This document shows, piece after piece, positions 10,676-60,177 of a stretch of 64,000 bases of DNA. Source of the stretch: Sacculina carcini (Eukaryota > Arthropoda > Thecostraca > Sacculinidae); the NCBI GenBank assembly GCA_916048095.2, contig OU696586.1, positions 7,426,249-7,490,248 on the forward strand, given 5' to 3'. A program made the translations under genes and the position numbers. The first letter of the stretch is position 1. Every line of letters starts with the position of its first letter. The notes under the pieces are model-generated. The model saw only the letters and a list, made by a program, of their open reading frames with translations. It ran no database searches and was not told the DNA's origin.

Positions 10676-11122
10676 TGTGGTGTAATCGTGTGTAGTGAGA
10701 GAGAGAGTGTGTGTGTATGAAAGATTGTGAGTGCGTGAACGTGTTAGTGTGTCTATGTGTGATCGTGTATAGTTGAATTGTATATTGCGTGCGAGAGTGT
10801 GTGAGCGAGTGTGTCTAGTTGTTTCGGTGTGTGTGTGTGTAGTTGTTTCGGTGTGTGTGTGTGTGTGTGTGTATGCGTTTGTGAATTGTCCATGCCCCGC
10901 AGCGGCGAGTGAATGACCGGCTCGCCGCTGATTGGTTGTTGCGGCGGGTGAGGACTGTGTGTGCGTGTGTGTGTGTCCGTGTGTGCTCCCGTGTGACACG
11001 GTGTGAGCGGAGAGTCGTGTTTGTGGTGCGATCGGAGTGTGACGTCTTGTAGGCGCGCGTGGGGCGGTGATGCCCACGCGCGCCTGTCTGTAATATATTT
11101 TAGTCTCTTCAGTTTTGTTACA
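10676..11122 (+). repeat. 5' LTR of the short LTR element
   Basis: 447 bp, TG...CA. It contains GT runs, a CCCCGCAGCGGCGAG / CTCGCCGCTG pair, and near its end a perfect 13-bp stem (11051-11063 with 11073-11085) around a 9-nt loop, followed by TAATATATTTTAG. Confidence 0.8.
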
Positions 11123-11136
11123 AGCTATTTCGGCGT
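11123..11136 (+). other. Primer-binding-site candidate, 5' tRNA-Phe complement
   Basis: AGCTATTTCGGC directly after the LTR is the reverse complement of GCCGAAAUAGCU, the first 12 nt of metazoan tRNA-Phe(GAA) as I remember it. The same 14-mer AAGCTATTTCGGCG also follows the 5' LTR of element G1 (about 20001-20014). Canonical sites pair with the tRNA 3' CCA end, so this is unusual. Confidence 0.5.
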
Positions 11137-11367
11137 TTTTGTTTTGGAAATATTGTTTATCTGCGACCAGGCTTCAGCAGCGGAGATAGTGCCCTCCAGT
11201 ATTTGCAGCGGCCTGAAGGACGTGGTGGAGGTGCTCGGCGGCGTGTCAGGTTAGTGTGCAGGGGGACGGCAGGAGAGCATGGTGCCGGCAGGAAGCTGCG
11301 GGGGAGCTGTGGCCGAGGGTTGCTCGTCGTCCCACTTGTACTGGTGTTGGACTCGTCGCCGGGCAGA

Positions 11368-11769
11368 ATGAAGATCGCTGGTGGAGGCTGCTGGTTCTGG
11401 AGGGCAGGTGAGAGAAAGGAGCTGCTGAAGCCGGATGAGAAAACGAAGGAGTTGAGACGACGGCGTGGCCTGCATGTGCGGCGACGTAACGGCTGTCGCG
11501 GTAGGGTGCTGAAGAGCACCGGTGTCGACGGAAGCATGGTGGATGCTGGGGTCAAGGTGTTGTGCCCTGTCGTGGCAGCCGGTGATGAAGAGGACGGCAG
11601 GCTGCGGCGGAGCACTGAAGAGCACGGGCGGAGGCGGGAGCGTGGAGGATGCTGGGGCCTGCCGTGTTGCGCTTCGCCGCAGCCAAGGTGTGTGCGTCTG
11701 GTGGAGGCCGTCGTCGGGTTTGGTTGTTTTTGTTTGTTTGTTATGCGTTTTTTATTGTATGCTCTATAG
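11368..11769 (+). CDS. Open frame inside the short LTR element, unknown
   Basis: Within the GC-rich internal region a frame stays open from at least 11203 to 11769; its first ATG is at 11368, giving a protein of about 133 residues. It is rich in Gly, Arg and Cys, ends with a hydrophobic segment (CFCLFVMRFLLYAL), and contains an imperfect internal duplication built on LKST..G..VDAG and RSTEEHGRR. I recognise no domain. GC-rich DNA keeps several frames open by chance here, on both strands, so coding status is doubtful. If real it would be cargo rather than a retroelement enzyme. Confidence 0.2.
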   Translation: MKIAGGGCWFWRAGERKELLKPDEKTKELRRRRGLHVRRRNGCRGRVLKSTGVDGSMVDAGVKVLCPVVAAGDEEDGRLRRSTEEHGRRRERGGCWGLPCCASPQPRCVRLVEAVVGFGCFCLFVMRFLLYAL

Positions 11770-11797
11770 TTCATGTTTCTGTAAAAACAGGTGGAGG

Positions 11798-12244
11798 TGT
11801 GGTGTAATCGTGTGTAGTGAGAGAGAGTGTGTGTGTGTGAAAGATTGTGAGTGCGTGAACGTGTTAGTGTGTCTATGTGTGATCGTGTATAGTTGAATTG
11901 TATATTGCGTGCGAGAGTGTGTGAGCGAGTGTGTCTAGTTGTTTCGGTGTGTGTGTGTGCAGTTGTTTCGGTGTGTGTGTGTGTGTGTGTGTGTGTATGC
12001 GTTTGTGAATTGTCCATGCCCCGCAGCGGCGAGTGAATGACCGGCTCGCCGCTGATTGGTTGTTGCGGCGGGTGAGGACTGTGTGTGTGTGTGTGTGTCC
12101 GTGTGTGCTCCCGTGTGACACGGTGTGAGCGGAGAGTCGTGTTTGTGGTGCGATCGGAGTGTGACGTCTTGTAGGCGCGCGTGGGGCGGTGATGCTCACG
12201 CGCGCCTGTCTGTAATATATTTTAGTCTCTTCAGTTTTGTTACA
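11798..12244 (+). repeat. 3' LTR of the short LTR element
   Basis: Same length as the 5' copy. Differences are mostly in the number of GT/GA repeat units, plus one change in the hairpin arm (CTCACG for CCCACG, at 12194). Confidence 0.8.
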
Positions 12245-14610: not shown

Positions 14611-16252
14611 GTCTTCTGACAATCTGCTTGCGGCATTGATAGCCTGCATCTACCAACCTACCTTTCATCTACCTGCATATAAGCATTGAGAGTCAACTGG
14701 CAGTTATGCTGCTCTACTTCCAGCTATATGTGTGCATGTCGTTGCATTATTCATCAGGCAGGCTGTTACTTCTCTTCTGAAATTCATATGGGAAATGGAA
14801 TTATCTACGAGTTTATAATACAAGAGCCACACAACAGCTGCAGACAAACCGACAGTATTAGAGAACAATGACCAATACCATTCTACATCTTATTTATCTT
14901 ACACATCTTAAACAATGTCGGTATGTGACCAAGACACGATCCAATATATGAACACTATGCCTATCTTAATTTTATTTGGGCACCAGAAAGTGGCTGCTTT
15001 AACTTGATGCTTGATACAACTTGATGCTTGATACCTACATGTATGCTGATTGCTGGAAATATTAACAGTATAGCTGTTTTTCCATTTACAAATACATACT
15101 TCGACATCACAGAGGAAATCAAAATGCTCTCTTCCACTGTCATATTTTCCAAAGCTGCATTTGATTTTGTCAGCCTGGCCGCACCAGCAGTTCTGTGTTC
15201 TTGAATTCGTCTAGTAGATTTGAAGTTGTGCTCGGCACGTGACTTCAATAGAGCGTACCACCACATAATTTTTCTAAATACACCTTATATCTAGCTATTC
15301 CAGAACAACAGCGAATAATGGTACTCGCGAATAATAATAATCATACACTCTTGTGTCCAGTGGAAACTAGCCAATGATCTTGTTCTATCCCTCTGCTCAC
15401 CATCAGCATGTGTGGGAAATCATCATTATCGCATATTGTCTATATTTTGTTGCCTAATCTACAAACATTGGCTTGTCACGAATGAACATATTTGCTTAAT
15501 GCCACACATTGAATGCCACCATTGATTCATCAATACCATGCTCGTACTTTTGAAAAATGTCATGCATCTTCAGGTTTTCATTCAGTACAAGATGGACAGG
15601 TTCATTTTAACCAATACATTTGTATGCTCTTTTCTCGCGCATAATTCTTGTTTTCCATCACATTCAGTTGACATGGATTGAACTCGCAACAGTGGCGGTG
15701 GACCACCGTTTTACGCGTCGCTCCAAAGTGAGCGTACGCTGAATAGGCTCCGACCACGGGAGTAGGCCAGGCGCGCCGAGAGGGATCGGGCTCCGCTCAG
15801 TGTGGCAAGAAAGAGTTGTGTGCCGCCACTGCAGAAAATGAGTGCAACGCTTCAATTTCCCTGCATATTGCTTAGAATTTAGTGAATTTCAAGGCCCAAT
15901 GGAGCCTAGATTGTTATTGTCGTTTTGAGATTATAGTTTAGTTTTTTTCTAAATATGATTTTTAAGGCCTTTGACGTATTTTAGACAGTCTGGAAAATAT
16001 AAATATATGTTTATTGGAGTGTTAATAACACCTTAGATATTCATTGCTTCACTTTGAACCAGAAATATGCGGGTTTAGCTGGATTGGATGTACTGGGATT
16101 CCGATGTTTTTCAACATACTAATATAAAAATTCGTTCCGACAACAATCATTTCAAAGATGATTAAGGCTCTTCTAGTGTGCTAGTATTTATATTTTTGAA
16201 TTATTTCAATATATTTCGATTTTTGTCCCACCGACAAAACAATAATATATTT
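14611..16252. other. Non-coding stretch, no gene seen
   Basis: No supported gene. A GC-rich island at about 15675-15830 contains, on the minus strand, GAGTTCAATCC, which resembles a tRNA-type B box. Neither a clover-leaf nor an A box could be made, so a tRNA-derived SINE remnant is only a possibility. Confidence 0.4.
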
Positions 16253-16432
16253 TGGTGTTTTTATTACAAAAACAATATTAACAAACACTGAATTATTAAC
16301 ACTTCTCACTGCGACACCGCAATCCTTTCTTCTCTCAAACCAACTAACTCTTCCCGACATTGTTGATTCGTCCGTTGCCATGGCAACCAGCTAGTCAACG
16401 ATTACACAAATACACGAACTGTTAACGCAACA
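16253..16432 (-). repeat. G1 3' LTR
   Basis: 180 bp, about 94% identical by eye to 20012-20191. Shared features include CCCGACATTGTTGATTCG and the CACAAATACACGAACTG block. Confidence 0.85.
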
Positions 16433-16476
16433 CGCCCACCTGATCTGAAGATAAAAAAATACATACACACAACAAT

Positions 16477-18067
16477 TCATACATAATCGTGCATCCATTG
16501 AGGAGGTCTCCTTTCTCGTATGGGATATTGCCTTTGAGGTTCTGTTGGTTCTTCATCAACCCTTTCATCATGTTCTTCTGAACAACCCGGATCAATTGGT
16601 GGAGTAATGCTTCGTACGTCCAACACGTGCCGTGGCACGCCGTCAACCGATATGTTGTTTTCTGAATTGATGTCAGTAACACAGCCTCTCCTCCAGCCAG
16701 TTGTGCATCTTGCCTGAGGCGGTTTCACCCAGACCTCGTCTCCAATGTTGATAGATTTATGCATTCTTCTGTGCTCCACGCTGGACACCGATGCCGGGTG
16801 TCTCCAGTTGTAACTGAATATAGATTTGTACGGTACACTGTCTTCCTTCAAGCCATGTTTGGTGTCATATTATACCAAAACACCGCTTCTTGTGGGCGTA
16901 TGCCTCCTCGCTCTGCGATAGCCTTAATAGTTCTGTGGTTTCGTTCAATGATTACGTTCCCACTTGGCCTATATGCTGCCCTGAACCAACTCTTGATGTT
17001 CCACCTTTCAAAAAAACTCTTCAGTTGAGTAGATCTAAAAGCGGTCGAATTATCCAGTAATACTTGATTCACTGGTCCTCTCTCCAAAAACACCTCGTGC
17101 AAATTCTTAACGATACCTTCTGCCGTCTCTTTAACTAATTCATTCCATATGGATATGCGACTAGGTCCACAATCGATCAGCGTAAGATAAACTCCACCTC
17201 TGTAGTGCGTCACGTCGATCGCTATTCGCTTCCAATTGCCTTCAACTGATAAATGACCCGTGTCATGGTGAGCAGGTGCTAGGTCAATAGATTGACACCT
17301 CTCACACCGTTGCACTACATCCTTGACCTCATCTCGCGTAACATTTTCACCAACTTTCCTGGCCAGTTATAAGGTGTGATCAACCCCTACGTGGTGCATG
17401 TTATGTAATTCTTGAACGCTCACTGCACCCACATGATTCACTATATCATTGTTGCCCTTCATCTCGCTGTCATTCAACCATTGCCGCTTCATCCTTGTCA
17501 GTTCATCCGCCTTATTTTTCGCAGATGGCACAAGTTGTATTTCCACCTCCAACTAAAACTCATCAATCAGTTGCTTCATTGTGCACAATCTACGTTTCAC
17601 AATCATCTCGGCTGCTCCTTTTGTACGGGGTCTTTTTTCCTCCGTCAAAGCCCTGTTAACCCAGCCTTGGACTGTGGCTGAGTCAGTGATTAGACTGATA
17701 TGGCGTAAACCCCATTTCAATGCAAGATTTTAACCCTTTAATATTGCTTCTAGCTCCGCAACGTTGATATGATTGTAATCGTCTTTCTTTCTCAACCACG
17801 CAGCGTCCTCAACCACATCACCATGCATCCCAGCACTACTCCAATCGCTAAATTACTGGCATCACACCATACTACTCCATGCGTTGTCTTAGGAACACTC
17901 CACTTGCCTCTCACGGGATCCGATGCTTTAATCTTTTCGACTGCTTCACGTATAATCTTGGTTGCGCCATCTCCAATAGGATCATCCCAGTACACACCCT
18001 CCGCTTTTCTCTTGATGAAACTGCTGGCTGTTCTCAACCAACCAGCGACTGGATAGTGTCCCACCAA
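16477..18067 (-). pseudogene. G1 RNase H and integrase region, frameshifted
   Basis: Pieces in different frames read in order. At 17792-18067 there is an RNase H-like piece with a CDASNLAIGVVLG box. At 17367-17552 there is a connecting piece with ADELTRMKR. At 16848-17315 lies an integrase core with CERCQ, an AIDVTH aspartate, a LLDNSTAF aspartate and a GNVIIERNH glutamate. At 16477-16851 lies an integrase C-terminal piece with PIRERRPPQW. At least three shifts or stops separate them, so no full-length product is possible. In the living family these domains copy the RNA, remove it and join cDNA to the chromosome. Confidence 0.75.
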
Positions 18068-18069
18068 TT

Positions 18070-19257
18070 TTACACATATAGATAACAGTTCCTTTCTCGT
18101 GACTGTATCAGGTATATCGGGGACCGTGTTTCCTCGCGAGAATTCCTATCTATCGAATCTATTTTTCTCAATCTTAGCCCCAGAGCTGTTCCTCCATCTA
18201 ATTGTTCCGGCTCTTTTGTTGTCAGTCCAAATTTTTCCAAATGCTCAACCACCTCATCAACACTTACCATGGACCTATTAACGAGAATGTCATCGACGTA
18301 TGAGCTTGTCGCGGCCTCGATTCTCTTGGACTTTGCCAGCACTGTTTTAAGAATTTTTGACATTATGCGAGGTGCGACACTCAAACCGAAGCCCAAGCGA
18401 GTAAGGCTGTATGTTTTACCGCGAAAATTCACCAGTTGATACTTTCTCAGTTCGTCGGCAACACAAATTTGCAAATAAGCCGACTTCAGGTCAACCAAAA
18501 TCGGTTCTCCTTCTACTTGCCTCCACTCTCTAATCTTTTCTGCACATATATCAATCTCATCGCCACCCGTGTGACTTTCCACAAACTGATTCACCTCCCT
18601 GTAATCTAGCACAGGTCGTACCTTACCCTTATTTTTCTGTTCGACCGCCATCAGTGGCAAAATTCCATATTTGATTTGACTGGACCATGGCACGAGAATA
18701 CCTTCGTCTGTCCACCTTTGTACCTCTCTCTCATATTCTTCTTTTCTCTGGGATGGTAATTCTTTCCTATAATTACTGACACAGTTCTTCAGTACAGGAG
18801 GACCTCTGTTATTCCAATGCAACCTGACGGTCCATCGTCTTCCATAAAATTGTCCATCAAAATCCTTATCTTTGATCTCACAGGCCGTTTCTGCTTGATT
18901 GAATTTTCTAGACACATTCGGCGACACTGTTGAACACTGGTTTCTGCAGAACACAACGTTTTCTCCATTCACGATCACTCCACCAAGTTCGGAAATGACA
19001 TCCATTCCAAGCACAACATCTATATTATTAACAATTTCATCAATCACCATTGCCCGTCTTCTCAGACGACTTCCATTAACACACACATTTAGCCATGTCT
19101 CAACCCTACATCGCACCCTTCTTCCGTCGAACGCACTCACTGTGCCCCCATTCATGTACTGATTTACTAGTGACGTTTTCACCATGGTCATTGTACATCC
19201 TGTATCCACTAATGCACTCACTCTCTCTTCATCAACAAGCACGTCAATAATCGGCAT
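18070..19257 (-). CDS. G1 protease and reverse transcriptase
   Basis: A 395-residue frame begins with ATG at 19257, 17 nt after the gag stop and in another frame. Near its N-terminus is a retropepsin-like site, ALVDTGCTMTMV (about residues 14-26), which has DTG rather than the DSG usual in gypsy elements. RT motifs follow: VRPVLDYREVN, a LVDLKSAYLQI box with the first catalytic Asp, LTRLGFGLSVAPRIM, and SYVDDILVN with the catalytic DD pair. The frame ends prematurely after GLRLRK, before RNase H. The LTRLGFGL-type RT is unlike those of G2-G5, and I cannot name the clade. Confidence 0.75.
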   Translation of the reverse strand: MPIIDVLVDEERVSALVDTGCTMTMVKTSLVNQYMNGGTVSAFDGRRVRCRVETWLNVCVNGSRLRRRAMVIDEIVNNIDVVLGMDVISELGGVIVNGENVVFCRNQCSTVSPNVSRKFNQAETACEIKDKDFDGQFYGRRWTVRLHWNNRGPPVLKNCVSNYRKELPSQRKEEYEREVQRWTDEGILVPWSSQIKYGILPLMAVEQKNKGKVRPVLDYREVNQFVESHTGGDEIDICAEKIREWRQVEGEPILVDLKSAYLQICVADELRKYQLVNFRGKTYSLTRLGFGLSVAPRIMSKILKTVLAKSKRIEAATSSYVDDILVNRSMVSVDEVVEHLEKFGLTTKEPEQLDGGTALGLRLRKIDSIDRNSREETRSPIYLIQSRERNCYLYV

Positions 19258-19274
19258 TTGACAAGATTGCGCCT

Positions 19275-19973
19275 TTACAGAAGCGAAGGGATGACTGTTG
19301 GCGCACCAGCACCCCTTTCCTCGTTTCCCTGTTTCCTACGGCATTGGTATGACACATGACCTTCTCCACCGCACTTGAAACACCTGACGCGTCTTTTTTT
19401 CGTGCCCTCGCGCGCCATATGCGGCCCACCACACTCAAAACATTTCCCGCTAAAACTTGATCTTCGCTCGCCTATCTGGGTGTTGGACATTGCAGCAACA
19501 TTTCCATTCACTTTTCCTGTGAGCACTCTCGCTCTGGTCAAGATATCGCTCATTGACAGCTCCAAGATGTCCTTAACTTGTTGCAGCTCTTTACTTGTGT
19601 GTTCTGGTAGTCCGTTCACAAAGGTCAACTTCAACATCTTCTCGAGAGCTTCTCCTTTGAATCCAGCTAGCCCAGCCAATCGGCGAATTTCGCTGGCAAA
19701 CGCGTCCACTGGTTCGCCAGTCCATCGCACTTGCATCAGTTTCGCATGCGCCACAAACGGGCTATCAGAGAAGGCTTCTTTAAATTTGCTTTCAATTTCA
19801 TCAGCATTTTTCTGATCAGTTTCTTCCATTTCCAGATATGTAGCGAGCGCATCACCTTCCAAATATAGCGGTAAAAGACTTGCCACTTCATCAACTTTCT
19901 GCAGCTTAGCAACCAACCTCACTTTCTTTATCCATACGACCACGTCGCCATTTCCGCTGAACGGTTTTATCAT
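19275..19973 (-). CDS. G1 Gag-like protein with zinc knuckles
   Basis: 232 residues starting with ATG at 19973, about 28 nt beyond the proposed primer site. The N-terminal two thirds have the helical retrotransposon-gag pattern (GDALATYLEM, FASEIRRLAGLAGF, FVNGLPEH). A CFECGGPHMA.. knuckle-like segment and a full CX2CX4HX4C knuckle (CFKCGGEGHVSYQC) lie near residues 182-215. It would form the particle and bind element RNA. The frame is intact although the rest of the element has decayed. Confidence 0.75.
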   Translation of the reverse strand: MIKPFSGNGDVVVWIKKVRLVAKLQKVDEVASLLPLYLEGDALATYLEMEETDQKNADEIESKFKEAFSDSPFVAHAKLMQVRWTGEPVDAFASEIRRLAGLAGFKGEALEKMLKLTFVNGLPEHTSKELQQVKDILELSMSDILTRARVLTGKVNGNVAAMSNTQIGERRSSFSGKCFECGGPHMAREGTKKRRVRCFKCGGEGHVSYQCRRKQGNEERGAGAPTVIPSLL

Positions 19974-20000
19974 GCTTTCTGATATTCTTGAAATATCGCC

Positions 20001-20014
20001 GAAATAGCTTTTGG
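20001..20014 (-). other. G1 primer-site candidate, 5' tRNA-Phe complement
   Basis: On the element strand, AAGCTATTTCGGCG lies within 3 nt of the LTR end (CACCA). It is identical over 14 nt to the sequence following the 5' LTR at 11122 and complementary to tRNA-Phe nucleotides 1-12 as I remember that tRNA. Confidence 0.5.
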
Positions 20015-20191
20015 TGTTTTTATTACAAAAACAATATTAACAAACACTGAATTATTAACAATTCTCACTAAGACACCGCAATACCTTCTTCTCCCAAACC
20101 AACGAACTCTTCCCGACATTGTTGATTCGTCCGTTGCCATTGCAACCAACTAGTCAACGATTACACAAATACACGAACTGTTAACACAACA
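20012..20191 (-). repeat. G1 5' LTR
   Basis: 180 bp. On the element strand it starts TGTTGTGTTAACAG and ends ACACCA. The downstream flank is GATATATATCC. Confidence 0.85.
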
Positions 20192-20728
20192 GATATATAT
20201 CCAAGTAATATTTATTATTGCAATATTACTTTATGAAACTTATATTTATCAGAGCTAATCAACGCACTGTTACACCGACAGTAATGAACACGTTGGCTGA
20301 ACTGCAACGTATTCGTGGACACAACACGAGGCTAACTGCCGACAATGGTACACTCATTCATACACCCCACTCTAGCACACGGACATACATACACGCTTAC
20401 ACAAGGATCATGTGTCACGAGCTTCACCGCGTGTAACCATGAACGTTCACACAGTTACACACCAACATACATACACGCTCACACAATGTTAACGCTACGC
20501 AAGTCTATCGTACATCAATGACTCACGCACGTGCAAACGTCATGGGCGTGCTGACACTACATATATACTGGCGCACTTATATTTTTGACACCTGCGTCTT
20601 CGTTGTTAGGTTAGGTTAGGTTAGGCTAGGTTAGTTACCATTTCTGCCGTCAGAGAGCGCTATTATCGTATTGGACGGAGCCAATGACGGATGGACGCCA
20701 CCTAGATACATCTATACCTTTTACAATT

Positions 20729-20830
20729 TCATTTGTCCCAACTGAAATCCAAATTGTCCCAGCTGAAATCAAAATTGTACCATCTGAAATCAAAATTGTC
20801 CCAACTGAAATCAAAATTGTCCCAGCTAGA
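20729..20830 (-). repeat. 21-bp minisatellite, left arm of element A
   Basis: About five units of the 21-bp repeat whose plus sense elsewhere begins GTTGGGACAATTTTGATTTC. Here it appears as the reverse complement (ATTGTCCCAACTGAAATCAA). The period equals seven codons, hence meaningless 7-residue repeat frames. Confidence 0.9.
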
Positions 20831-20968
20831 ACAACAATGTATGTTATTGATTTTACATTTAATATCAAATGTAATTGTTATCAGTACATTTTATTGTATT
20901 TCGCATGTTAAGTTTAACATTAGTCGAAAAACGCAGACGTGTACTACTTACTGTGTACTATACAATTA

Positions 20969-22550: not shown

Positions 22551-22943
22551 GTGCGCGAACGTTCGTGCGTGTTTGTTAGTGAATGTGTTTTAGTGGGCCA
22601 TGTTGCGTTGAGATTGTGTTGAGTTGTGATATCTTGCTTTTTTGCTTGAATTTAAGTGCACGCGCTGCTTGAATTCATTCAAATGGTTTCTTGTTGGCGC
22701 GCGTGAGACTGAAATGCCCCCGTACGCCCGTCTTCTAATATGTCTTTTGTCTTACATGTTGAGTGCTTTCACAAAATAACCATCCTCTAAGAGTGAGTAA
22801 CCATATAACAGTTTACATTTGAACAGGTCCTCCTAACACTCTCAAGATATAACTATTGAGAGAAAACAATTAGATAAGTCATTGAATACTGGTCATTTCA
22901 GTTTGAAAATACTTAATTGCAATTGAGAAAGTGTTAAATTCGA

Positions 22944-23060
22944 TTGGGACAAATATATATTTCAGTTGGGGCAATTTTGATTTCAGTTGGGACAATTTTG
23001 ATTTCAGTTGGGACAATTTTGCTTTTAGTTGAGACAAATTTGATTTCAGTTGGGACAAAT
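22944..23060 (+). repeat. 21-bp minisatellite, right arm of element A
   Basis: About five and a half units of GTTGGGACAATTTTGATTTC plus one base, in plus orientation, followed by GACAAATGAAATTGTAAAA. This is the inverse of the left arm. Confidence 0.9.
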
Positions 23061-23081
23061 GAAATTGTAAAATATATATAT

Positions 23082-23279
23082 TGTAATGTTGTGACTACTA
23101 TTATTTATCTATCTAATATCCGTTGTGCGGCAGTGACCCTGCAATGAGGACGTTGGTGGTGTGTTGGGACCGCGTGTAGTTTGTGGTTGTGTTTGTATCG
23201 TTATATTTGATATTCTGTCGTGCAGATAATTTATTACATCGTTGTATGAAAATATCCAGGGTGTCAATTGGGTATTACA
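23082..23279 (+). repeat. G2 5' LTR
   Basis: 198 bp, TGTAATG...GTATTACA. Confidence 0.9.
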
Positions 23280-23282
23280 AAT

Positions 23283-23293
23283 GGCGACGAGGT
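23283..23293 (+). other. G2 primer-binding site, tRNA-Ser(GCU)
   Basis: TGGCGACGAGG equals the complement of CCUCGUCGCCA, the acceptor end of tRNA-Ser(GCU). It is placed immediately after the 5' LTR. Confidence 0.75.
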
Positions 23294-23355
23294 CAAAACA
23301 ATAGTTTTTCATTGTTTTATCGAGTATCTGTCTGTTTGTTGTGAATCTATCTGTT

Positions 23356-25335
23356 ATGATGAATCTATCACCGAACCAGCTGCCGAACTTCGATGTTCAC
23401 ACCGAACCAGTGGGTCCACGATGGACAAAACGGATTACTAGATTCGATAATTATCTTATTGCGAAGGACATTACCGACGTGAAGCGTCAATGTGCATTTT
23501 TGTTGCATTTTGCCGGGGAAGATTTGCATGAAATTTATCAGACACTCAACGTACCAGAACCAACACCGACCAGTGGTATGACTGCCTACGAGACAATGAA
23601 AAGTGCATTGAAAACGTACTTTGAACCGAAACGCAATGTGCACTACGAAATATACACGTTTCAATCCGCCAGACAAGAACCGAACGAATCACTAGATGAA
23701 TTCGTCACCAGACTGCGGAAACTTGCGAAACATTGTGAGTTCACCAGCACCGACAGAGAGATCCAATACAGAATCATTCAAGGATGTGTGTCCGACAAAT
23801 TGCGCCCCAAAAAGTGGCTCGAGGAGATGTCACTATCAGCGCTTCTATCTGCAGGCCGTGCAATGGAGAACGCAGAAAGGCAGGCGAGAGAGATTGAAAC
23901 AACCGGAGTTTTGAGTTTGAGTTCAGAGTTCAGAGTTCAGATCTCCAGAGTTTGTGCTCGTAATGACCAGGAGCGCCAAAGTTATCGTAAGACACCCCAA
24001 CATATCCATCGCAACCAACACTCGAATTCTACCATCTGTGGTGTTTGCGGCGGACATTATCCACATCCTGGAGGACAAAATTCGTGTCCAGCTCGCGGAA
24101 AAAAGTGCTACTCCTGCGGAAAGAGAAGCCACTTCAGCAAGATGGGTCGTCAGCGATCATCAGTCACAAACGGTCACCAACCACCAATCATCAGCGACCA
24201 ACGTGCACAACGAAGCGTGACAACTAATCAGACTGACAGGGGGAGAAACGTCAGACAAATATCAGTCAACAGAGACTCTGATCAATCTACCTACAAGGAT
24301 CATGCTGAGTATGTGTTTTCAATCGAGCAACAATCTACAAAAACACCTATTGTTCATGTGTATATCTATGATCAGCCATTGCCAGTGCTCATCGACTCTG
24401 GAGCCAGCGCAAACGTACTCGAGAAAGGTGTCTATGACTCATTTCGACCAAGACCAAAACTTCGTTCGACCAACTCAAAATTGTACGCGTATGGATCGAG
24501 GACGCCGTTAAATGTTCTTGGAGCTGTTGATGTGCAATTGTCGAAGGGTGAGAAGTGTGTTGAAACATGTTTTTATGTGGTTAAATCTAACAACGATTCA
24601 CTTATGGGCTATGAGACCGCCACGGAACTTGGTTTACTTCAGATAGTCCGTTCTGTGCAGCAACTGTCTGACAGTGTGATTCAGAGACTCCTGAAAGAGT
24701 ATCATGTCGTCCAGGCAATCGGCAAGCTGAGAGGTCACCAAGTGAATATCCACGTCAACGAGAACGTAACACCAGTCGCTCAACCTCACCGAAGAATTCA
24801 TTTTCACATGCGGAAAGCTGTGGAAGCTGAAATCGACTTATTGTTGGAACAAGACATCATTGAACCGGTATCTGGACTGTCACCTATCGTCTGTGTTCCC
24901 GAACCGAAAAATCGGCCAAAAATTCGCATTTGTGTCGACATGCGCTGCTCAAACATGTCAATTCAGCGTGAGTGCCATATCTCTCCAACAGTGGACGACA
25001 TCATTCATGATCTTAATGGAGCCGGATATTTCAGTAAGATTGATCTTCGCAGCGGATATCACCAGCTAGAACTCCACCCAGAGCCGAGAAATCACCACAT
25101 TTGCTACCCATGTTGGACATTTCCGATACAAACGACTGAATTTTGGCATCTGTTCTGCAGCAGAAGTTTTCCAAAGAACGATCGAGCAAGTTCTCGCCGG
25201 AATTCAAAACGTACGAAGTTTTGCAGACGACATCATAATCTACGGCAAGAGACAATCCGAACACGAACAAGCCTTACGCAATGTTATTCGTCGTCTTCAC
25301 GAGAGTGGTTTAACTATTCAACCGAAGAAATGTGA
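23356..25335 (+). pseudogene. G2 gag-protease-RT frame, shifted within RT
   Basis: The first ATG is at 23356; the frame continues to 25335. The Gag domain (about residues 1-190) has the K02A2.6-like pattern (FLLHFAGEDLHEIY, FQSARQEPNESLDEFVTRL). Two knuckle segments follow (CGVCGGHYPH.., CYSCGKRSHF; the last Cys of the second is lost). The protease active site reads VLIDSGASANVLE near residue 345, and RT begins with IEPVSGLSP and FSKIDLRSGYHQLEL. After about 25130 the reading no longer matches RT. The continuation, including an FADD catalytic box near 25225, lies in another frame. Gag-protease could still be made; RT could not. Confidence 0.8.
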
Positions 25336-26045
25336 GTTTGATGTACCATATCTGACATTTTATGGATTCAAATTTTCCAAAGAAGGCATATATGCAGAGT
25401 CCGCTAAGGTTAAAGCATTATCAATCATGCCAGCGCCATCAAACGTCGGCGAAGTGCGAAGCTTCTTGGGTATGACTACCTTTCACGCTTCATCAATAAT
25501 TATGCTGACATCACTACACCTCTACGTGCTCTTACACAAAAATATACACCGTGGAAATGAAGCAGTGAAGAAGAATCGGCATTTCAGACGATCAAGACGA
25601 AATTATCTAGTCAATCAACTTTGTCGTATTTTGATCCGAGCAAGCACACATAAATAAATGTTGATGCTAGTCCACACGGCATAGCTGCTATCTTATCTCA
25701 GCGCAGTGCGGCACATGATGAAGTCACCGATATCGTAGCTTATGCTAGTCGAGCTCTATCACCCGTGGAACAGCGGTACTCTCAAACCGAACGAGAAACC
25801 ATCGCCATCGTTGTGGTCAACCTGTCACCGTTGTAACCGATCACAAACCAGTTGAACTCATCTGGAACAACCCGAAATCCAAACCACCAGCAAGAATCGA
25901 GAGATGGGGACTCCGTCTTCAGCCATACGACATCCACATCAAGTACAAGACTGGAAAATCTAATCCAGCTGACTATATGTCCCGCCACCCTATCGACGAC
26001 CTCACCAACTCATCTGAATCAAAGAATGCTGAAGAATATGTGAAC
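25140..26045 (+). pseudogene. G2 RT C-terminus and RNase H, broken
   Basis: Fragments in changing frames show the RT catalytic box (RSFADDIIIYG near 25215-25247), a YGFKFSKEGIY segment, the RSFLGMTTF joint, an RNase H VDASPHGIAAILSQ segment from about 25661 directly after a stop, and VTDHKPVELIW from about 25833. At least three frame changes and one stop separate them. In living relatives this region copies RNA and degrades it. Confidence 0.75.
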
Positions 26046-26075
26046 TAAATCATCCAAAACGTAATCGCGAAGGCG

Positions 26076-27254
26076 ATGAGGCTCGAAGAAGTGCAGTATC
26101 ACGCCGCCCGTGATCCTACCATGATTCGTGTGACAGAGCTGATAGAGTCAATTAACTGGAAGATTGACCAATCAAATCCTTATGTCGATCAGCACTTCCT
26201 GAAGAGCATGCATAACGTCAGAGATGAACTTACCTTATCGTCCGACCGGGGAACCATTCTTCGAAGCAACAGAATCATAATACCACCGTGTCTACAAGAC
26301 CGAGTGATCAGCCTGGCTCATGGTGGACATCAAGGCGTTGTGAAAGCCAAGAGTCTACTTCGTGAGAAAGTATGGTTTCCAGGTATAGACAAGAAAGTAG
26401 AAGACACCATCAGCAAATGCATGGCATGCCAATCAACCAGCAGCCCCAATAGGCCTGAGCCATTTTCAATGAGCAACCTGCCAATCCGACCATGGCGTAA
26501 AATGAGCGTTGATTTTATGGTTCATTTACCGAACGGCATATATCTGTTTGTCATCATTCACGACTATTCTCGATACCCGATATTGTATCCCACATCAAGT
26601 ACCTCATTCAATGCCACAGCACCACTTCTGGACTCAGCATTCGCCATGTTTGGCACACCAAAGATCGTCAAGACAGACAATGGTCCACCATTTAATGGTC
26701 ATCAATTCGAACTATTCAACTACCTCGGTTTTCAGCACCGTAAAGTAGCTCCCTTGTGGCCTAGAGCAAATGGGCACGTTGAACGATTCATGAAAACACT
26801 GAAACCAGGCTTGTCTGCAGCATCTGTAGAACAAAAACCTCTCCAACAAGCTTTGAATACGTTTCTACGACAATACCGATCTACAACTCATCCTTCTACT
26901 GGAAAGTCACCGTGTGAGTTGCTGTTTGGTAGGTCTGTGAGGTCTTTGTTACCTGAAAGTTTTCCACCAATGGATGACAACACAGTTCGCAATCACGACA
27001 CCTCCGCGAATACCAAGATGCAATTTTATGCCGACAAAAGAAGCAAACATCAACGACTGAGAGTGGGAGATCGAGTCCTCGTACCAGCAATAAAAAAAGC
27101 TGACTCAAAATTTCATACCGACACCGTATACTGCCGATCGAGTGAAGGGTACAATGATAACCGCTCGACGCAAACATCAAACCGTGACGCGAAACAGTTC
27201 ACTCTTCAAACCATGTCCAAACGTCAACCTGAACCGAACCACAGATTCGTCTGA
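26076..27254 (+). CDS. G2 integrase
   Basis: An open frame of 392 residues from ATG at 26076. It carries the zinc-binding HHCC motif (H82, H85, C115, C118) and the catalytic triad Asp146 (MSVDFM), Asp201 (KTDNGPPF) and Glu236 (NGHVERF), with 34 residues between the last two. A GDRVLVPAIKK-type C-terminal domain follows. The frame starts inside pol, so in an intact element it would be the C-terminal part of a polyprotein. Integrase inserts cDNA into the chromosome. The core is intact in a copy whose RT is broken. Confidence 0.8.
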   Translation: MRLEEVQYHAARDPTMIRVTELIESINWKIDQSNPYVDQHFLKSMHNVRDELTLSSDRGTILRSNRIIIPPCLQDRVISLAHGGHQGVVKAKSLLREKVWFPGIDKKVEDTISKCMACQSTSSPNRPEPFSMSNLPIRPWRKMSVDFMVHLPNGIYLFVIIHDYSRYPILYPTSSTSFNATAPLLDSAFAMFGTPKIVKTDNGPPFNGHQFELFNYLGFQHRKVAPLWPRANGHVERFMKTLKPGLSAASVEQKPLQQALNTFLRQYRSTTHPSTGKSPCELLFGRSVRSLLPESFPPMDDNTVRNHDTSANTKMQFYADKRSKHQRLRVGDRVLVPAIKKADSKFHTDTVYCRSSEGYNDNRSTQTSNRDAKQFTLQTMSKRQPEPNHRFV

Positions 27255-27454
27255 TCAAGAGGAGGAGGAAGGACTTGTGACACTGACCAGCGCCGACCAC
27301 GTTCCGGGTTATCCAACAAGCGCTTAACAAGTTCCTGACCATCCGATGGAGGAAGCAGTCGGGCCGGAGGAGACTGTCCCTGCACCTCGTCGACCTACAA
27401 GACCACGACGCCCTCCAGAGAGATATAGAGAGTTGTTTTCAAAACGGGAGTGAA

Positions 27455-27652
27455 TGTGATGTTGTGACTACTATTATTTATCTATGTAATATCCGTTGTG
27501 CGGTAGTGACCCCGCAATGAGGACGTTGGTGGTGTGTTGGGACCGCGTGTAGTTTGTGTTTGTGTTTGTATCGTTATATTTCATATTCTGTCGTGCAGAT
27601 AATTTATTACATCGTTGTATGAAAATATCCAGGGTGTCAATTGGGTATTACA
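27455..27652 (+). repeat. G2 3' LTR
   Basis: 198 bp, TGTGATG...GTATTACA, with about six substitutions from the 5' copy. Confidence 0.9.
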
Positions 27653-27725
27653 TATATCACATATATTACATGTATCTAGGTAATCTCCTTCAATCTAGAT
27701 ATATCTAGGTGGCGTTGACGGAGCG

Positions 27726-31707: not shown

Positions 31708-31869
31708 TGTAAGGAGCGTTAGATGGCGCCCCATGTTAAACACTGGACCAAGCCAGTCAACCACGAGACGTCTTGGTTTGCGGGTGTCATATTGCGAGTG
31801 TTTGTGAATACCATTATGTGTGTATGCTAAGCTCATCCAATACAGTGTAACCGTTCTGTCGACATTACA
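31708..31869 (+). repeat. G3 5' LTR
   Basis: 162 bp with TG...CA ends. Confidence 0.9.
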
Positions 31870-31880
31870 TGGTGGCAGCC

Positions 31881-33038
31881 ATGGAACGACTCACGCCAAG
31901 TATGAACTGGGATGATTAAGACCGAATGAACGCGATATCCATGTTCAAGCAGAAATGCGAGCTGTACTTTTCAGTTCAGAACATCTCGACGGATAAACAA
32001 GTGGACCACATACTTCTGTTTGCCGGGGAAACAGGCATAAGGATGTACAACTCCAGGACCATGACAGAGGAAGAACGACGCGATCCGCAGCATGTATGGG
32101 AACAGCTCACGAGACAAATCCAGCCTAGTACGAGTTTTCGCATCAGTCGCTTGGAATTGCAAAGATTTAGACAAGCACCAGACAAGAACATGACGAATTT
32201 CTTGTCACGGTGAAAACTGCAGGCACTAAAACGCCGTTTCAAGGATAATAGACGGACGGTGCTCGGAATTAGAGGATCGAATTAAAGACCAAGTAATCGC
32301 TGGCACCAAACACCCCGAGCTGCAAAAAAACTCATGCACGACACGCTTAAGCTATCCGAGGTAATAGATAGTGGCAGGACAGTCGAGGCATCGTTGACTC
32401 ACATGGAGCAGCTATCCCGTATGAATACAGCAGACCAGCAGAAATATGACGCCGTGAAATGGAATGCAGCAACATCCGCGAGCAAGAAGGGCCTAGCAGG
32501 CAGACAGACAGACACACATCAGGCAGGCGACGCCGTCTGCACGCGCAGATCGGGTGATTGATTCAACGCGAGCAAGAAAGGCATGGCAGGCGCGTGGAAA
32601 GGCGGGCGCTCCGTCACATGCACGTATTGCGGAAGACAACATGAGCAGGGGCGGCGCAACTGCCACGCGTATGGCATAACATGTAATAATTGTGGTAGGC
32701 GGGATCATTGGGCTTCAATGTGTCAAGCAACGCGTCCGCGCAATGCACATGAAATCGAAAAGCATGACAAGGACATTGAAGTCGACAATCTTGTGTGCAA
32801 ACTCCGCATCGACACCGTGGACGAAGTCGAAGGCACCGAACATGAAGTGTACACAAACCTGGATACTGAACGGTTTGGCACCGTGTTCAGCATGAAATAC
32901 AAGGTGGATACCAGTGCTGCTGGCAATATTTTGCCATTGCGTATGTTCCAAAAATTGTTTCAGCGCGAGAAACCCGCCAGTGGCGACACCAGACCGTACC
33001 AGACCAGACCGCTCGGTGCTCACAGCGTACTATCATAA
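31881..33038 (+). pseudogene. G3 gag and protease, broken
   Basis: It starts with ATG at 31881, eleven bases after the primer site begins. An in-frame TAA appears after 12 codons and further stops at 32211 and 32559. Between about 32213 and 32334 the homologous reading leaves and re-enters the frame. Recognisable parts are a Gag helix region (LFAGETGIRMYN), two knuckle segments (CTYCGRQHEQGRRNC, CNNCGRRDHWASMC) and a protease active site altered to VDTSAAGN. The frame ends at 33038. Gag cannot be made intact from this copy. Confidence 0.75.
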
Positions 33039-35820
33039 GTCAAGTAAACCAACGCATATCAGGCATTTCGGCCTTATGAGCTTGGTATGTCCACACGAAA
33101 ATGGCAAAACCGCTACACTAGATTTATTTGTGGTCGACACAAAACGCCCGGCTCTCCTCGACTGGCCGTCGTGCAAGGCGCTCGATAATGTGCGGGTACG
33201 TCGACATGATAAGAACGAATCACCAACAAGCAGCCAGCTGGAAAAAACGTGCGTGTTGTACACCGTGAACGACCATAGTCTGCAAGACCAAGAGTCAATT
33301 GACCGAGTGCACAGTACAGATCAACTGAAGGCACAATACCCGGACAGGTTCGACACTATCGGACACATGCCCGGGAAGTACCGCATCGTTTTGCGACCCG
33401 GAGCCCAGCCGGTGGTAGATGCACCCAGCCAAGTACCCATCAAAGTAAAAAATGATTTACAGCAGACTCTTAACGAAATGGAAGCTCAAGGGATTATTGA
33501 GCGCGTAACAAAGCCAACCGAATGGGTGAACAGTCTCACGTGTACGCGCAAAGCAAACGGACGATTGAGAGTATGTCTGGACTTAAAGGACCTCAACAAA
33601 TGCATCATGAGAACTCACCACCGCGCTCCCACACTTGATGAGATATCGCACCAGTTAGCCGGAGCTAAATTATTTAGTAAATTGGACACCAAGGACGGAT
33701 ACTGGTCAGTGGAATTGGATGATGCAAGCTCCGAACTCACGACGTTCAACACACCGTTCGGACGTTTCCCATACAACAGAATGCCATTCGGGTTGAGGAT
33801 GTCGCGGGACGTATTCCAGCAAGAAATGGATGCAATACTCGAGCAATGCCCAGGTGCCATTGGCATTGCCGACGACGTTGTGGTGTACTCCACCACTGAA
33901 GAAGAAAACGGCATCCGTCTTCACAACTTGATGAAAGTAGCAAGACACTCGGGACTGACTTTTAACAGCAGTAAGTGCTTCATAAAGTGCAGTAGCGTCA
34001 AATTCTTCGGAGCAGTTTTTGACGCAAGCGGGAAACACCCAGACCCGGATAAAGTCAAAGACTTACAGGACATGAAGGAACCACGCAACAAGACTGAATT
34101 GCAAGAATTTCTGGGTTTGGCAACCTACCTGAGCCCGTTTATAAGCGGCCTGGCTGAGAAAACGGCACCACTGCGAGACTTGCTGCGAAAGGAGGCAATT
34201 TTCAACTGGCTACCCCAGCATGCAGCAGCTGTCGAGGACTTGAAGGAAGCAATATCGAAAGAAACGACGCTGTCATATTACGACACGCAAAAACTCACCG
34301 AAATCCAAGGAGACGCGTCCCAAAAAGGCTTGGGAGCCGTGCTCATCCAAGAAGGCAGGCCGATCGCATTCACATCCAAAGCCCTGACAGATGTCGAGAA
34401 ACGATACGCAAACATTGAGAGAGAACTACTAGCAGTAGTTTTCGGATGTCGGAGATTCCATACGTATATATATGGTGGACCGGTGACGGTGTATAGCGAT
34501 CATAAACCGCTGGAGATGATTCAGAAGAAACACCTTCATGCTGCCCCTCCTCGACTGCAAAGAATGCTTCTAGCACTGCAGCCATATGACTACGAGATCC
34601 AATACGCCAAGCCAGATGCCATTACAGCGGCCGACACACTGTCTAGAGCGCCAGGGGCATGTAACGATCATATCGATCTTGATGTGCAAGTCGACCACAT
34701 CCATTTCGAACCACAGTGGATCAGAGATATTCGGAATGATACACAAAAGGACCTTGAGTTGCAAACACTCAGCGAGACAATAAACAGGGGATGGCCCGAA
34801 AGAATCGGAGACATCCGGGAGGATCAGCGTGCATACTGGCCATATCGGGACGAATTATCAATTGTGGATGGTGTAGTCATGAGAGGACAGCGCGTTGTCA
34901 TCCCATCATCAAGAACATCCATGATCCTGAAGCAGTTGCACGGGGCACATCTGGGTGAAGAAAAGTGCATGCTGTTGGCTCGGGAATGTGTATTTTGGGT
35001 AAGGATCAACAAGGACTTAGAAGACATGTGCAAGAGCTGTCCTGTTTGTAACAAATTCGCAAAGGCGCCACGGAAGGAACCGTTACTACCACATGAGGTA
35101 CCAACTCGACCCTGGCAAGTTGTTGGAGCCGATCTTTTCGATTGGGGTGGCAAGAAATACCTAGCCATCGCTGATTACTACTCGAAGTTTCCAATTGTAC
35201 GGCGAATGCCTTCGTACTGCAGCTTGACTGCAGTGAAAGATGCACTTAAGCAGACATTTGCGGAATTTGGAATTCCCGAGAAGATGGTGAGCGACAACGG
35301 ACCACAATTTAGTTCGCACGAGTTCGCACGTTTTACGGAAGAATGGAACATCCATCACATCAGCAGCTCGCCACACTACCCCCAGTCGAACGGCTTGATC
35401 GAACGCACAATACAAACGCTAAAGCAAACAATGACAAAGGTGAATGAGAGTGGAGATGACCTGCAGCTCGCTCTTTTGAATCTGAGGGCGACACCGATCG
35501 ACAGGAAACTGCCCAGCCCTGCCGAGCTCCTGATGAACAGAAGACTGAGGGGTGTCCTTCCAGGCATCGTGAGCAACCAGAATATTGACCGAGATTTACA
35601 CCGAGCGAGACTACAGGAGCGGCAAGACGAGCAGGCGACACATTACAATCGCTCGGCAGCAACTCGCCCCGATTTCAATACTGGAGAACCCATATACATC
35701 CGACAAGAGAACAACACATGGCAGCGGGGCAGAGTTGTCTCCAGATCAACCGAACACCCGAGGACATATCATTTCCTAACAGAATCCGGACGGATTTACG
35801 CCGAAGCAAAGGCTTCATAA
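32985..35820 (+). CDS. G3 pol: RT, RNase H and integrase
   Basis: An open frame in the +1 register relative to gag, first matching gypsy pol near 32985. No start codon is needed if it is expressed as a fusion. Order: RT with FSKLDTKDGYWSVEL, FGLRMSRDVFQ and GIADDVVVY (the catalytic box is IADD rather than YADD); RNase H with EIQGDASQKGLGAVL and YSDHKPLEM; integrase with an HHCC region (KSCPVCNKF), Asp in GADLFDWG, Asp in VSDNGPQFSS, and Glu in NGLIERTIQTL at D-35-E spacing. It ends at TAA 35818-35820. All catalytic residues appear present, yet gag is dead, so mobility would need help in trans. Confidence 0.85.
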
Positions 35821-36020
35821 GACCAGCTGACACCGCCACAGCATCGCCAAACAATGTCAGCGATGACCCAGGAACAAATGAAGATACGCGTTCTGGTACA
35901 CTGTCGGAAGCACGAGCAGCGACGCCGGTGGTGTTGACTCAAAACGAATCTCCGCCGATCGTCTCAAGAGCAGGCCGTGCACTCCGTCCCCCGAGTAGAT
36001 ACTCTCCGTAGAGAGGGAGA

Positions 36021-36182
36021 TGTAAGGAGCGTTAGATGGTGCCCCATGTCAAACAGTGGACCAAGCCAGTCACCCACGAGACGTCTTGGTTTGCTGGTGT
36101 CATATTGCGAGTGTTTGTGAATACCATTATGTGTGTATGCTAAGTTCATCCAATACAGTGTAACCGTTCTGTCGACATTACA
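36021..36182 (+). repeat. G3 3' LTR
   Basis: 162 bp with six substitutions relative to the 5' copy. Confidence 0.9.
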
Positions 36183-38670: not shown

Positions 38671-38883
38671 ACCATATTTTTTATGAAATAAAGCAATGAT
38701 GTTTATCAAATTGTTTTTAAATTCGTTATAATAATGTACAGATTCAGAAAATGTTGACAGCAGAACAATACAAGTTAATTGGTTGGTCAAGTGTTTTTTA
38801 ACAAGGGTTTATTTAAACTAACGCTTCTTTAATGAAACAATGCTTTCTATGGATTATCTGATATCTTACCTTTGACAATTTCA

Positions 38884-39240
38884 TTTGTCCTAACTGAGAT
38901 CAAAGTTGTCCCAACTGAAATCAAAGTTGTCCCAACTGAAATCAAAGTTGTCCAAACTGAAATCAAAGTTGTCCCAACTGAAATCAAAGTTGTCCCAACT
39001 GAAATAAAAGTTGTCCCAACTGAAATCAAAGTTGTCCCAACTGAAATCAAAGTTGTCCCAACTGAAATCAAAGTTGTCACAACTGAAATCAAAGTTGTCC
39101 CAACTGAAATCAAAGTTGTCCCAACTGAAATCAAAGTTGTCCCAACTGAAATCAAAGTTGTCCCAACTGAAATCAAAATTGTCCTAACTGAAATGAAAGT
39201 TGTCCCAACTGAAATGAAAGTTGTCCCAACTGAAATCAAA
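38884..39240 (-). repeat. 21-bp minisatellite, 17 units
   Basis: Seventeen tandem units (GTTGTCCCAACTGAAATCAA plus one base), mostly identical, in strict 21-bp register. The right-hand array at 40801-40945 has fewer units in inverse orientation. Confidence 0.95.
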
Positions 39241-40402
39241 ATTGTTCCAGCTAGAACCACAATGTATGCTATTGATTTTACATTGAATATCAAACTGAAT
39301 TGTTATTTGTTAAAGTACATTTTATTGTATTTCACATGAAAAGTTTAGCATTAGTCGTAAAACATAGATATGTACTACTTACTATGTACTATACAATTGT
39401 GGCTATGGTATGTAGTACAATTACAATGCAGATGTGTACCGTACGTACTTACTTTATGAGGAACTCCCAATATGAGGATCAGCCAATATATCAATGTCAG
39501 CGTATATACCACCAGCGCGTGTACTTAAATTCTAGCAACAAAGAAAGATATCACAACTCAACACAATCACAACGCAACATGACCCACTAAAACACCTTCA
39601 CTAACAAACACGCACGAACGTTCTGCGCAAACAACTGCCCTATGGCGCGCACTGCCCCATGGCGCTCTGCCCACCCCCTGCATCCCCCTGCTCGCTCATA
39701 GCACGTGCATACAACATACATACACTCACACTACCTAGCAAACACAAATAGACACCATACACCAATATATATATACCGTACAAAATTAAACATAGTACAG
39801 ATGGCTAGCAACGACAAGCGCTATACACACGTGATGCCTGAACACTTGCCATAAGACGAAAGGTACCGTCTCTGAAAGTGTGATGTTTCTGTAGATGTGT
39901 GTGTGTGTGTGTGTGTGTGCACGATTTGATCGCGAGTGCTCTCCGAGAACATTGGCTCTATACGCTGACACTGATATTGGCTGATAGAGTGCGCGCCATA
40001 GGGCAGTTGTTTGCGCAGAACGTTCGTGCGTGTTTGTTAGTGAAGGTGTTTTAGTGGGCAATGTTGCGTTGTGATTGTGTTGAGTTGTGATAGCTTGCTT
40101 TGTTCCTAGAATTTAAGTACACGCGCTGGTGGTATATACGCTGACATTGATATATTGGCTGATAGAATTCCTCATAAACTAAGTACGTACGGCACATATC
40201 TGCATTGTAATTGTAGTACATACCATAACACATAATTGTATAGTACATAGTAAGTAGTAAATATCTGTGTTTTACGACTAATGTTAAATTTTTCATGTGA
40301 AATACAAAAAATGTACCGATAACAATTAAGTTTGATATTAAATGTAAAATCAATAACATACATTGTGGTTCTAGCTGGGACAATTTTGATTTCAGTTGGG
40401 AC

Positions 40403-40760
40403 TGTTAGGACAATATCCTAAATTTTCCTGACCAGACAATTCTTATATCCTATGCTTTTTTATTCTATATTCCCATTCTATATTTTCTTTCTTTCCATTA
40501 TATGCTCTATTACATTACATTATTCATATATGTATATGTGTATGCATGTGTATGTGTATATATGTGCGTGTGTATGTTTCGTGTGCATGTGTATGTGTTT
40601 GTGTGTATGTGTGTATGTATGTGTTCAATTTTGCAAGCACCCATGTACCTTCTGTCGATTTGTGCTCCATATTTTTGTCCTCATACCGCTCTGTGTCTAC
40701 ACTTTATTACCCTGCTCCTGCTCGCGCCTTTGTCCTCGAAAGTGTGCTATTTTCAATACA

Positions 40761-40800
<40 letters not shown>
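40403..40800 (+). mobile_element. Retroposon with (GTT)n tail in the minisatellite
   Basis: Inserted between two copies of GTTGGGAC (40395-40402 and 40801-40808), which may be the target duplication or simply the tandem unit. It starts TGTTAGGACAATATCC and ends AATACAT followed by about 13 GTT units. The tail parallels LINE A and 9182-9467. Body identity is not established. Confidence 0.55.
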
Positions 40801-40803
<3 letters not shown>

Positions 40804-40945
40804 GGGACAATTTTGATTTCAGTTGGGACAACTTTGATTTCAGTTGGGACAACTTTGATTTCAGTTGGGACAATTTTGATTTCAGTTGGGACAACTTCGA
40901 TTTCAGTTGGGACAATTTCGATTTCAGTTGGGACAAATGAAATTG
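40801..40945 (+). repeat. 21-bp minisatellite, right arm of element B
   Basis: Six to seven units in plus orientation, ending GGGACAAATGAAATTG. Confidence 0.9.
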
Positions 40946-40967
40946 TAAAAGGTATAGAACAGTCTCT

Positions 40968-51224: not shown

Positions 51225-51227
51225 ATA

Positions 51228-51424
51228 TGTACGATATATTATAGCAACGGATCTATCTCACCGAGCACTCAACACAACAATAACAATAACAATACAACAA
51301 CAATAGAATGATACAACGCCACGACACACACACCACCACTGCTGTACACACACTGGCTGACGGCCGTTAGCGTCACCCACGCCTAATACCCTCGCGCCCT
51401 CTGGCGGTGTAGGCACACACTACA
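51228..51424 (-). repeat. G5 3' LTR
   Basis: 197 bp with TG...CA ends on either strand. It contains an AACAATAACAATAACAATAC run. Confidence 0.95.
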
Positions 51425-51432
51425 TCTCCCCT

Positions 51433-55833: not shown

Positions 55834-56029
55834 GTACGATATATTATAGCAACGGATCTATCTCACCGAGCACTCAACACAACAATAACAATAACAATAC
55901 AACAACAATAGAATGATACAACGCCACGACACACACACCACCACTGCTGTACACACACTGGCTGACGGCCGTTAGCGTCACCCACGCCTAATACCCTCGC
56001 GCCCTCTGGCGGTGTAGGCACACACTACA
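55833..56029 (-). repeat. G5 5' LTR
   Basis: 197 bp with no difference seen from the 3' copy. Confidence 0.95.
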
Positions 56030-60089: not shown

Positions 60090-60177
60090 CTGCAGGAAAA
60101 AAACAAATTCTCCAATAAGCTTTGTTTTATTACAAATCTACCATGCTATATTCTGCCATCTCAGTATATTCCCGCAT

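Follow-up and report, generated by a model that had tools for sequence, protein, structure and literature searches.

How does reverse transcription begin in a long terminal repeat (LTR) retroelement whose 5' LTR is followed by a match to the 5' end, and not the 3' end, of a tRNA? The question is raised by a short element at 10676..12244 (+) of the window, the 64,000-nucleotide (nt) stretch of the Sacculina carcini genome analyzed here (GCA_916048095.2, contig OU696586.1, positions 7,426,249 to 7,490,248 of the forward strand). An earlier, sequence-only reading took AGCTATTTCGGC, which adjoins the 5' LTR of this element, as a primer site for the 5' end of tRNA-Phe. Our results support this interpretation, since the site is found at many LTRs and abuts them, extends no further than the complement of tRNA nt 1 and has no complement upstream, and since tRNA-Phe itself is attested. 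We consider it probable that AGCTATTTCGGC is the primer-binding site (PBS) of a group of LTR elements with Ty3-type gene order, primed by the 5' 12 nt of a tRNA-Phe cut after U12.

Within the window, the 14-mer AAGCTATTTCGGCG was found exactly at 11122-11135 (+) and at 19997-20010 (-), with no other match at up to 2 mismatches. Thus, as the sequence-only reading held, the site follows the 5' LTR of both the short element and a decayed gag-pol element, G1 (16251..20191, -), and is exact in both, but the coordinates given there were shifted by 1 base. The two LTRs were rightly said to differ, as they fall in separate LTR clusters (threshold for LTR and internal clusters, E of 1e-5). Because two matches at up to 2 mismatches were also reached in 3 shuffles (expected number, 0.32), the window evidence alone is suggestive. 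An ordinary tRNA PBS starts with TGG and complements a tRNA 3' end; the present site begins AGCTATT. Among the four other LTR pairs of the window that were examined, TGG stands at the LTR end or 2 nt past it in three (near 55832 (-), 31870 (+), and 23282 (+)), and the fourth has no TGG by its LTR end.

Counts across the host assembly (264 Mb, 43 contigs), each controlled with the reversed pattern, were decisive for the reality of the site. Places where A, C, or T comes after YACAAGCTATTTCGGC (YACA before AGCTATTTCGGC) number 1540, against a random expectation of about 0.25, and AAGCTATTTCGGCG, which ends in G, occurs at 151; both reversed controls gave 0. The site is therefore conserved in other copies, at 1540 plus at most 151 places. 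Fifty-two sites were examined individually, namely, 50 of the 151 14-mer places and the 2 of the window. Since they were selected via AAGCTATTTCGGCG, conservation within the 14-mer is given by construction in this sample, and two broader patterns were searched besides. Clustering sorts the LTRs of the 52 sites into 18 clusters and their internal sequences into 14 (15 and 11, respectively, when the first 32 sites are taken alone), so that the site is conserved over many families. YACA directly precedes AGCT in 49 of them (TACA in 40, CACA in 9), the three exceptions being AACA, TATA, and CAAA, the last of which is G1.

The exact extent of the site was also evident from these counts. When these 12 nt and the base after them were left open, in the pattern TACA-N13-TTTTTGTTTKG fitted to one short-element subfamily, 198 places were found (reversed control, 14); a tally by eye of the 100 listed gave 80 with the exact AGCTATTTCGGC, 18 with one substitution, and 2 with two. 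The base after the 12 nt, tallied likewise in the first 100 of the 1540 places, was C in 42, A in 28, and T in 30. This free choice among A, C, and T rules out the 13th base as a member of the site and indicates that the conserved block reaches from the LTR border to the complement of tRNA nt 1. The conserved site previously described is thus real, but its length is 12 nt and not the claimed 14 nt.

The site is shared by elements with long coding frames. In the loci L051, L052, and L053, we observed the features of Ty3/gypsy-type elements: TG...CA LTRs, a polypurine tract (PPT), and the order protease (PR), reverse transcriptase (RT), RNase H, integrase (IN). Their LTRs (TGT...ACA; 472, 573, and 257 nt as aligned) adjoin the site, and purine-rich tracts resembling the short-element PPT precede the 3' LTR. 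L054 is similar but broken into pieces, in which the Ty3-type gene order shows; a zinc knuckle of the Ty3/gypsy gag type was matched in the frames scanned from L051 and L054. The 5' and 3' LTRs are 100% identical in L051 and L053, and the pol frames of L051 to L053 measure 983, 1038, and 1098 amino acids (aa), respectively, which suggests recent activity of the elements that bear the site. Target-site duplications, which measure 4-6 bp in Ty3/gypsy elements, were seen in L052 (CAAAG, 5 bp) and L053 (TATG, 4 bp). The pol proteins of these three loci match protease, RT, DUF7047 (PF23088), RNase H-like, and integrase families, some below the Pfam cut-off. An RNase H-like match is present in each of L051 to L054, that of L053 being below cut-off. 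PF23088 lies between the RT and RNase H-like matches in all four loci and may mark the group. A PDB search returned weak reverse transcriptase matches only (best E, 0.0038).

G1 shares about 26-33% protein identity with L051 to L054 in gag, 35-49% in PR-RT, and 47-51% in IN; its sole matches to other window elements are at 19% (element 23082-27655) and 26% (element 31708-36182). An unrooted tree built from 376 PR-RT columns splits G1 and L051 to L054 from the three window elements with a TGG-type PBS (IQ-TREE, 100/100; FastTree, 1.000). Together, the protein similarity and the split suggest that AGCTATTTCGGC is the PBS of one element group. The L054 locus also gave weaker tblastn matches to two of the three TGG-PBS window elements; its RT frame gave none by blastp.

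Next, we asked which tRNA the site matches. Two published 5' probes for Drosophila tRNA-Phe end in ...GAGCTATTTCGGC, the complement of nt 1-13 (PMC7038984, PMC6542536), in agreement with AGCTATTTCGGC as the complement of nt 1-12. Host tRNAs of six other types (tRNA-Arg, Cys, Lys, Thr, Met, and Ala) were rejected as the source: in the 30 loci examined out of 51 listed tRNA matches, the best of their genes agreed at 9 of 13 positions. Candidates for tRNA-Phe were likewise rejected at 6 places examined out of 19, of which L102 to L104 hold no tRNA and L105 to L107 hold tRNA-Val. The 3' end of the molecule has left its own mark, as TGGTGCCGAAACCC, the complement of the tRNA-Phe 3' end with CCA, occurs at 33 places (reversed control, 0). 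Twenty of these were examined; GGGA comes next in 17, GGA in 2, and another sequence in 1, and the sequences upstream, where the LTRs are putative, are of several kinds. L128, which carries such an ordinary 3'-end PBS, shows an RVT_1 match below cut-off and DUF5641, with no tblastn match to G1. We take DUF5641 to be a mark of BEL/Pao elements, making L128 BEL/Pao-like. An acceptor 3' strand of UUUCGGC in turn places GCCGAAA at tRNA-Phe nt 1-7. Host tRNA-Phe is thus attested in sequence by the 3'-end PBS sites and, in addition, by pieces of tRNA-Phe within elements related to the group.

These pieces, the two partial tRNA-Phe matches in the assembly, show that tRNA-Phe has been copied into relatives. 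They lie on the reverse strand of L100 (tRNA nt 38-67, at 445-474) and of L101 (nt 38-72, at 586-620). In L100, L053-family and short-element pieces, some of them inverted, form a mosaic in which the tRNA piece links an antisense internal stretch to an L053-family LTR. L101, about 70-82% like the short-element family and L021, is built as an inverted duplication (166 nt at 94%). Its piece reads ...GGGTTTCGGC and is followed by sequence resembling the region just past the L021 PBS; TTTCGGC can be read there as acceptor strand or as PBS because both share it. In both pieces, the match to tRNA-Phe is lost at nt 37, the A at 38 in L100 being of ambiguous origin. Position 37 of tRNA-Phe carries m1G or wybutosine, known blocks to RT. 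Apparently, the pieces are template switches onto mature tRNA-Phe: minus-strand DNA with a copied PBS would end like the tRNA 5' strand and could pair with the tRNA 3' strand and copy it. If read rightly, these switches put tRNA-Phe near the enzyme.

Since an LTR-abutting site that matches nt 1-12 would place the primer 3'-OH at U12, tRNA-Phe would have to be cut. We propose that host tRNA-Phe pairs by its first 12 nt, GCCGAAAUAGCU, with AGCTATTTCGGC, the acceptor and D stems opening, and that a cut between nt 12 and 13 releases a 12-nt 5' piece. The 3'-OH at U12, exactly at the LTR/PBS border, would then prime minus-strand DNA. We infer that the cutter is the RNase H of the element itself, acting on tRNA-Phe in trans in the manner of Tf1; this is the route that we favor as most likely, with a host-made cut as its main rival.

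Several observations weigh against this proposal. To our knowledge, no 12-nt tRNA-Phe fragment has been described, and the role that tRNA-Phe plays in both chimeras is that of a template close to the enzyme, not that of a primer. Moreover, host tRNA-Phe genes, with which the match was to be confirmed, were not found in the assembly: two patterns gave 0 places, and an animal tRNA-Phe DNA sequence of 73 nt, used as a query, returned the two partial matches only. Therefore, nt 1-12 of the host molecule are deduced from acceptor pairing, from relatives, and from the PBS. The query route itself works, as a tRNA-Lys control retrieved 5 full genes, along with a piece covering nt 22-73 and three weaker matches to nt 1-63 at 81%, with no piece starting at nt 38. 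The host tRNA-Phe genes may lie in sequence outside the assembly. A G after the block is rare as well (at most 151 of about 1690 places). This rarity is not due to CpG loss, the observed/expected CpG ratio of the window being 0.97; it may reflect family sampling. Finally, the LTR alignment of L054 ends 28 nt before the site, and a clear target-site duplication was seen neither in L051 and L054 nor in the short element and G1.

It is possible, although rather unlikely, that tRNA-Phe is cut by a nuclease of the host, be it RNase P through hyperprocessing or some other enzyme, and that the 5' piece is then recruited. Such a cut differs from the proposed one only in its maker, and the PBS evidence for the two is equal. 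Host cleavage has precedents, as copia uses a half-tRNA and RNase P, cutting in the anticodon loop, is described as producing the 3' end of the Ty5 primer (PMC5371799). However, those cuts lie in the anticodon region and not at nt 12/13, which is much closer to the 5' end, and the tRNA-Phe fragments known to us from print measure about 35 nt (PMC7038984). A different small RNA ending in GCCGAAAUAGCU could also be the primer. No tRNA-Phe gene having been found in the assembly, the match rests on the conserved tRNA-Phe sequence, which leaves room for such an RNA. We nevertheless regard it as improbable, since the 12-nt block starts precisely at the complement of tRNA nt 1 and both genomic tRNA-Phe pieces sit in copies related to the group. 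Furthermore, none of the 15 places with GCCGAAATAGCTC is a tRNA gene, and several resemble PBS variants by eye.

Alternatively, the 12 nt might serve only for packaging or annealing, with the 3' end of an intact tRNA priming at a second site, as the bipartite PBS of Ty1 and Ty3 would suggest (PMC5371799). Indeed, TGGTGCCG was found downstream in 11 of the 52 sites, where 300 permuted 8-mers gave a median of 1 and a 95% point of 8. Yet these 11 places lie at several distances and none reads TGGTGCCGA; related copies are counted repeatedly, and some permuted 8-mers reach 16. On this inconsistent placement we rejected TGGTGCCG as the second site, and since the 12-nt block sits exactly at the LTR end, we hold a second site of any kind to be quite improbable. 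Least credible is Tf1-style self-priming by a piece of the element's own transcript. The 11-nt primer of Tf1 is of similar length (PMC7175516), and self-priming would call for a conserved GCCGAAATAGCT at the transcript start. Over 32 sites, however, the longest stretch complementary to the site within 1 kb upstream has a mean of 5.9 nt, the same as in the control (5.9), and one site across 18 LTR clusters would need a shared transcript start. Self-priming is therefore disfavored to the point of being very improbable.

The short element and G1 can now be described in this light. The short element (1569 nt, +) is a non-autonomous LTR element with paired LTRs and no gag/pol match. It comprises a 5' LTR (10676..11122, TGTGG...TTACA), the PBS AGCTATTTCGGC (11123..11134, complement of tRNA-Phe nt 12 to 1), the PPT CAGGTGGAGG (11788..11797), and an adjoining 3' LTR (11798..12244). 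Each LTR of this copy has 447 nt, and the two are identical at 440 of 443 aligned bases. No Pfam match was obtained for four frames of the element (165-353 aa). The G1 gag and PR-RT queries matched none of the seven fellow loci of its LTR cluster, each of which holds 1.5 kb past the site. L025, which shares the internal cluster of the short element and belongs to another LTR cluster, does match the RT query. With LTRs, PBS, and PPT in place and gag/pol lacking, the element has the makeup of a terminal-repeat retrotransposon in miniature (TRIM); we call it only TRIM-like because its 1569 nt exceed the <1000 bp given for TRIMs (PMC6934838).

G1 (-) has paired LTRs and broken frames. It comprises a 5' LTR (20010..20191, TGTTG...CACCAAA), the PBS AGCTATTTCGGC (19998..20009), a gag open reading frame (ORF) with a zinc knuckle (19275..20036; zf-CCHC, 1.3e-4), a PR-RT ORF (18070..19335; RVT_1, 2.3e-8; gag-asp_proteas, 2.1e-4, below cut-off), an integrase core ORF (16848..17366; rve, 1e-4, below cut-off), the PPT CAGGTGGGCG (16433..16442), and the 3' LTR (16251..16432). 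The LTRs have 182 nt and are identical at 172. In both elements, a PPT of the form CAGGTGGRSG stands directly before a 3' LTR starting with TGT. The same PBS, the similar PPT, and the nearly identical LTRs of the short element make it likely that the G1-type group mobilizes the short element in trans, which also fits the common LTR ends and the absence of gag/pol matches. Coding relatives such as L051 to L053 are likelier helpers than G1, whose frames are broken.

The window holds further repeats. An LTR element at 51227-56029 (-) has an intact 1474-aa gag-pol frame, 198-nt LTR stretches that are 100% identical, and a PBS of the TGG type; it lies between endonuclease and RT frames, which suggests insertion into a long interspersed nuclear element. 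Several repeats are flanked by arrays (38801-39343, 40753-41019, 20649-20897, and 22917-23120) whose 21-bp unit is of the TTTGATTTCAGTTGGGACAA type and which are in part mutually inverted. A 700-aa open frame at 58035-60137 (-) looks by eye like a hAT-type transposase and has no Pfam match at E 0.001.

Among known systems, a survey of plant elements distinguishes three primer types, namely, the complete tRNA, the half-tRNA cut in the anticodon stem, and the self-primer (PMC6317226). The elements with an ordinary PBS in this same genome, one of them BEL/Pao-like, would use the same tRNA, but by its 3' end, with TGGTGCCGAAACCCGGGA in 17 of the 20 places examined. In Ty5, as in copia, an internal tRNA 3'-OH produced by cleavage primes, as would be the case here; however, in Ty5 it is the anticodon loop of initiator tRNA-Met that is cleaved (PMC5371799), and our PBS matches nt 1-12 of tRNA-Phe, not the part just 5' of an anticodon-region cut. 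Bivalve TRIMs are also short animal LTR elements with an unusual site adjoining the LTR, which in two species resembles the central part of tRNA-Tyr; tRNA and position differ from ours, and no mechanism is defined for them (PMC6934838). No report of a PBS for a tRNA 5' end was found in the literature searched, most subscription papers lying outside the search. The sequence evidence points to priming by a tRNA 5' end as an undescribed start of reverse transcription. Tentatively, the group and its short elements may represent a fourth class of LTR-retroelement primer, the 5' 12 nt of a mature tRNA freed by the element RNase H, although we rate this as somewhat less likely than not. Such elements would escape PBS finders keyed to TGG and to tRNA 3' ends, and very short 5' tRNA fragments would gain a testable role. 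The closest likeness is to the Tf1/sushi elements (Tf1 of Schizosaccharomyces pombe, Tj1 of S. japonicus), which also use a very short primer from an RNA 5' end (PMC7175516, PMC4600332). In Tf1, the PBS anneals to the first 11 nt of the element's own RNA, which RNase H then severs between nt 11 and 12 (PMC7175516), compared with the 12 nt proposed here. The primer of Tf1/sushi elements is their own mRNA, whereas our site matches a host tRNA and, in the 32 sites, no complementary 5' transcript part was found upstream. If true, a 5'-end tRNA primer would thus join tRNA priming to Tf1-like self-priming.
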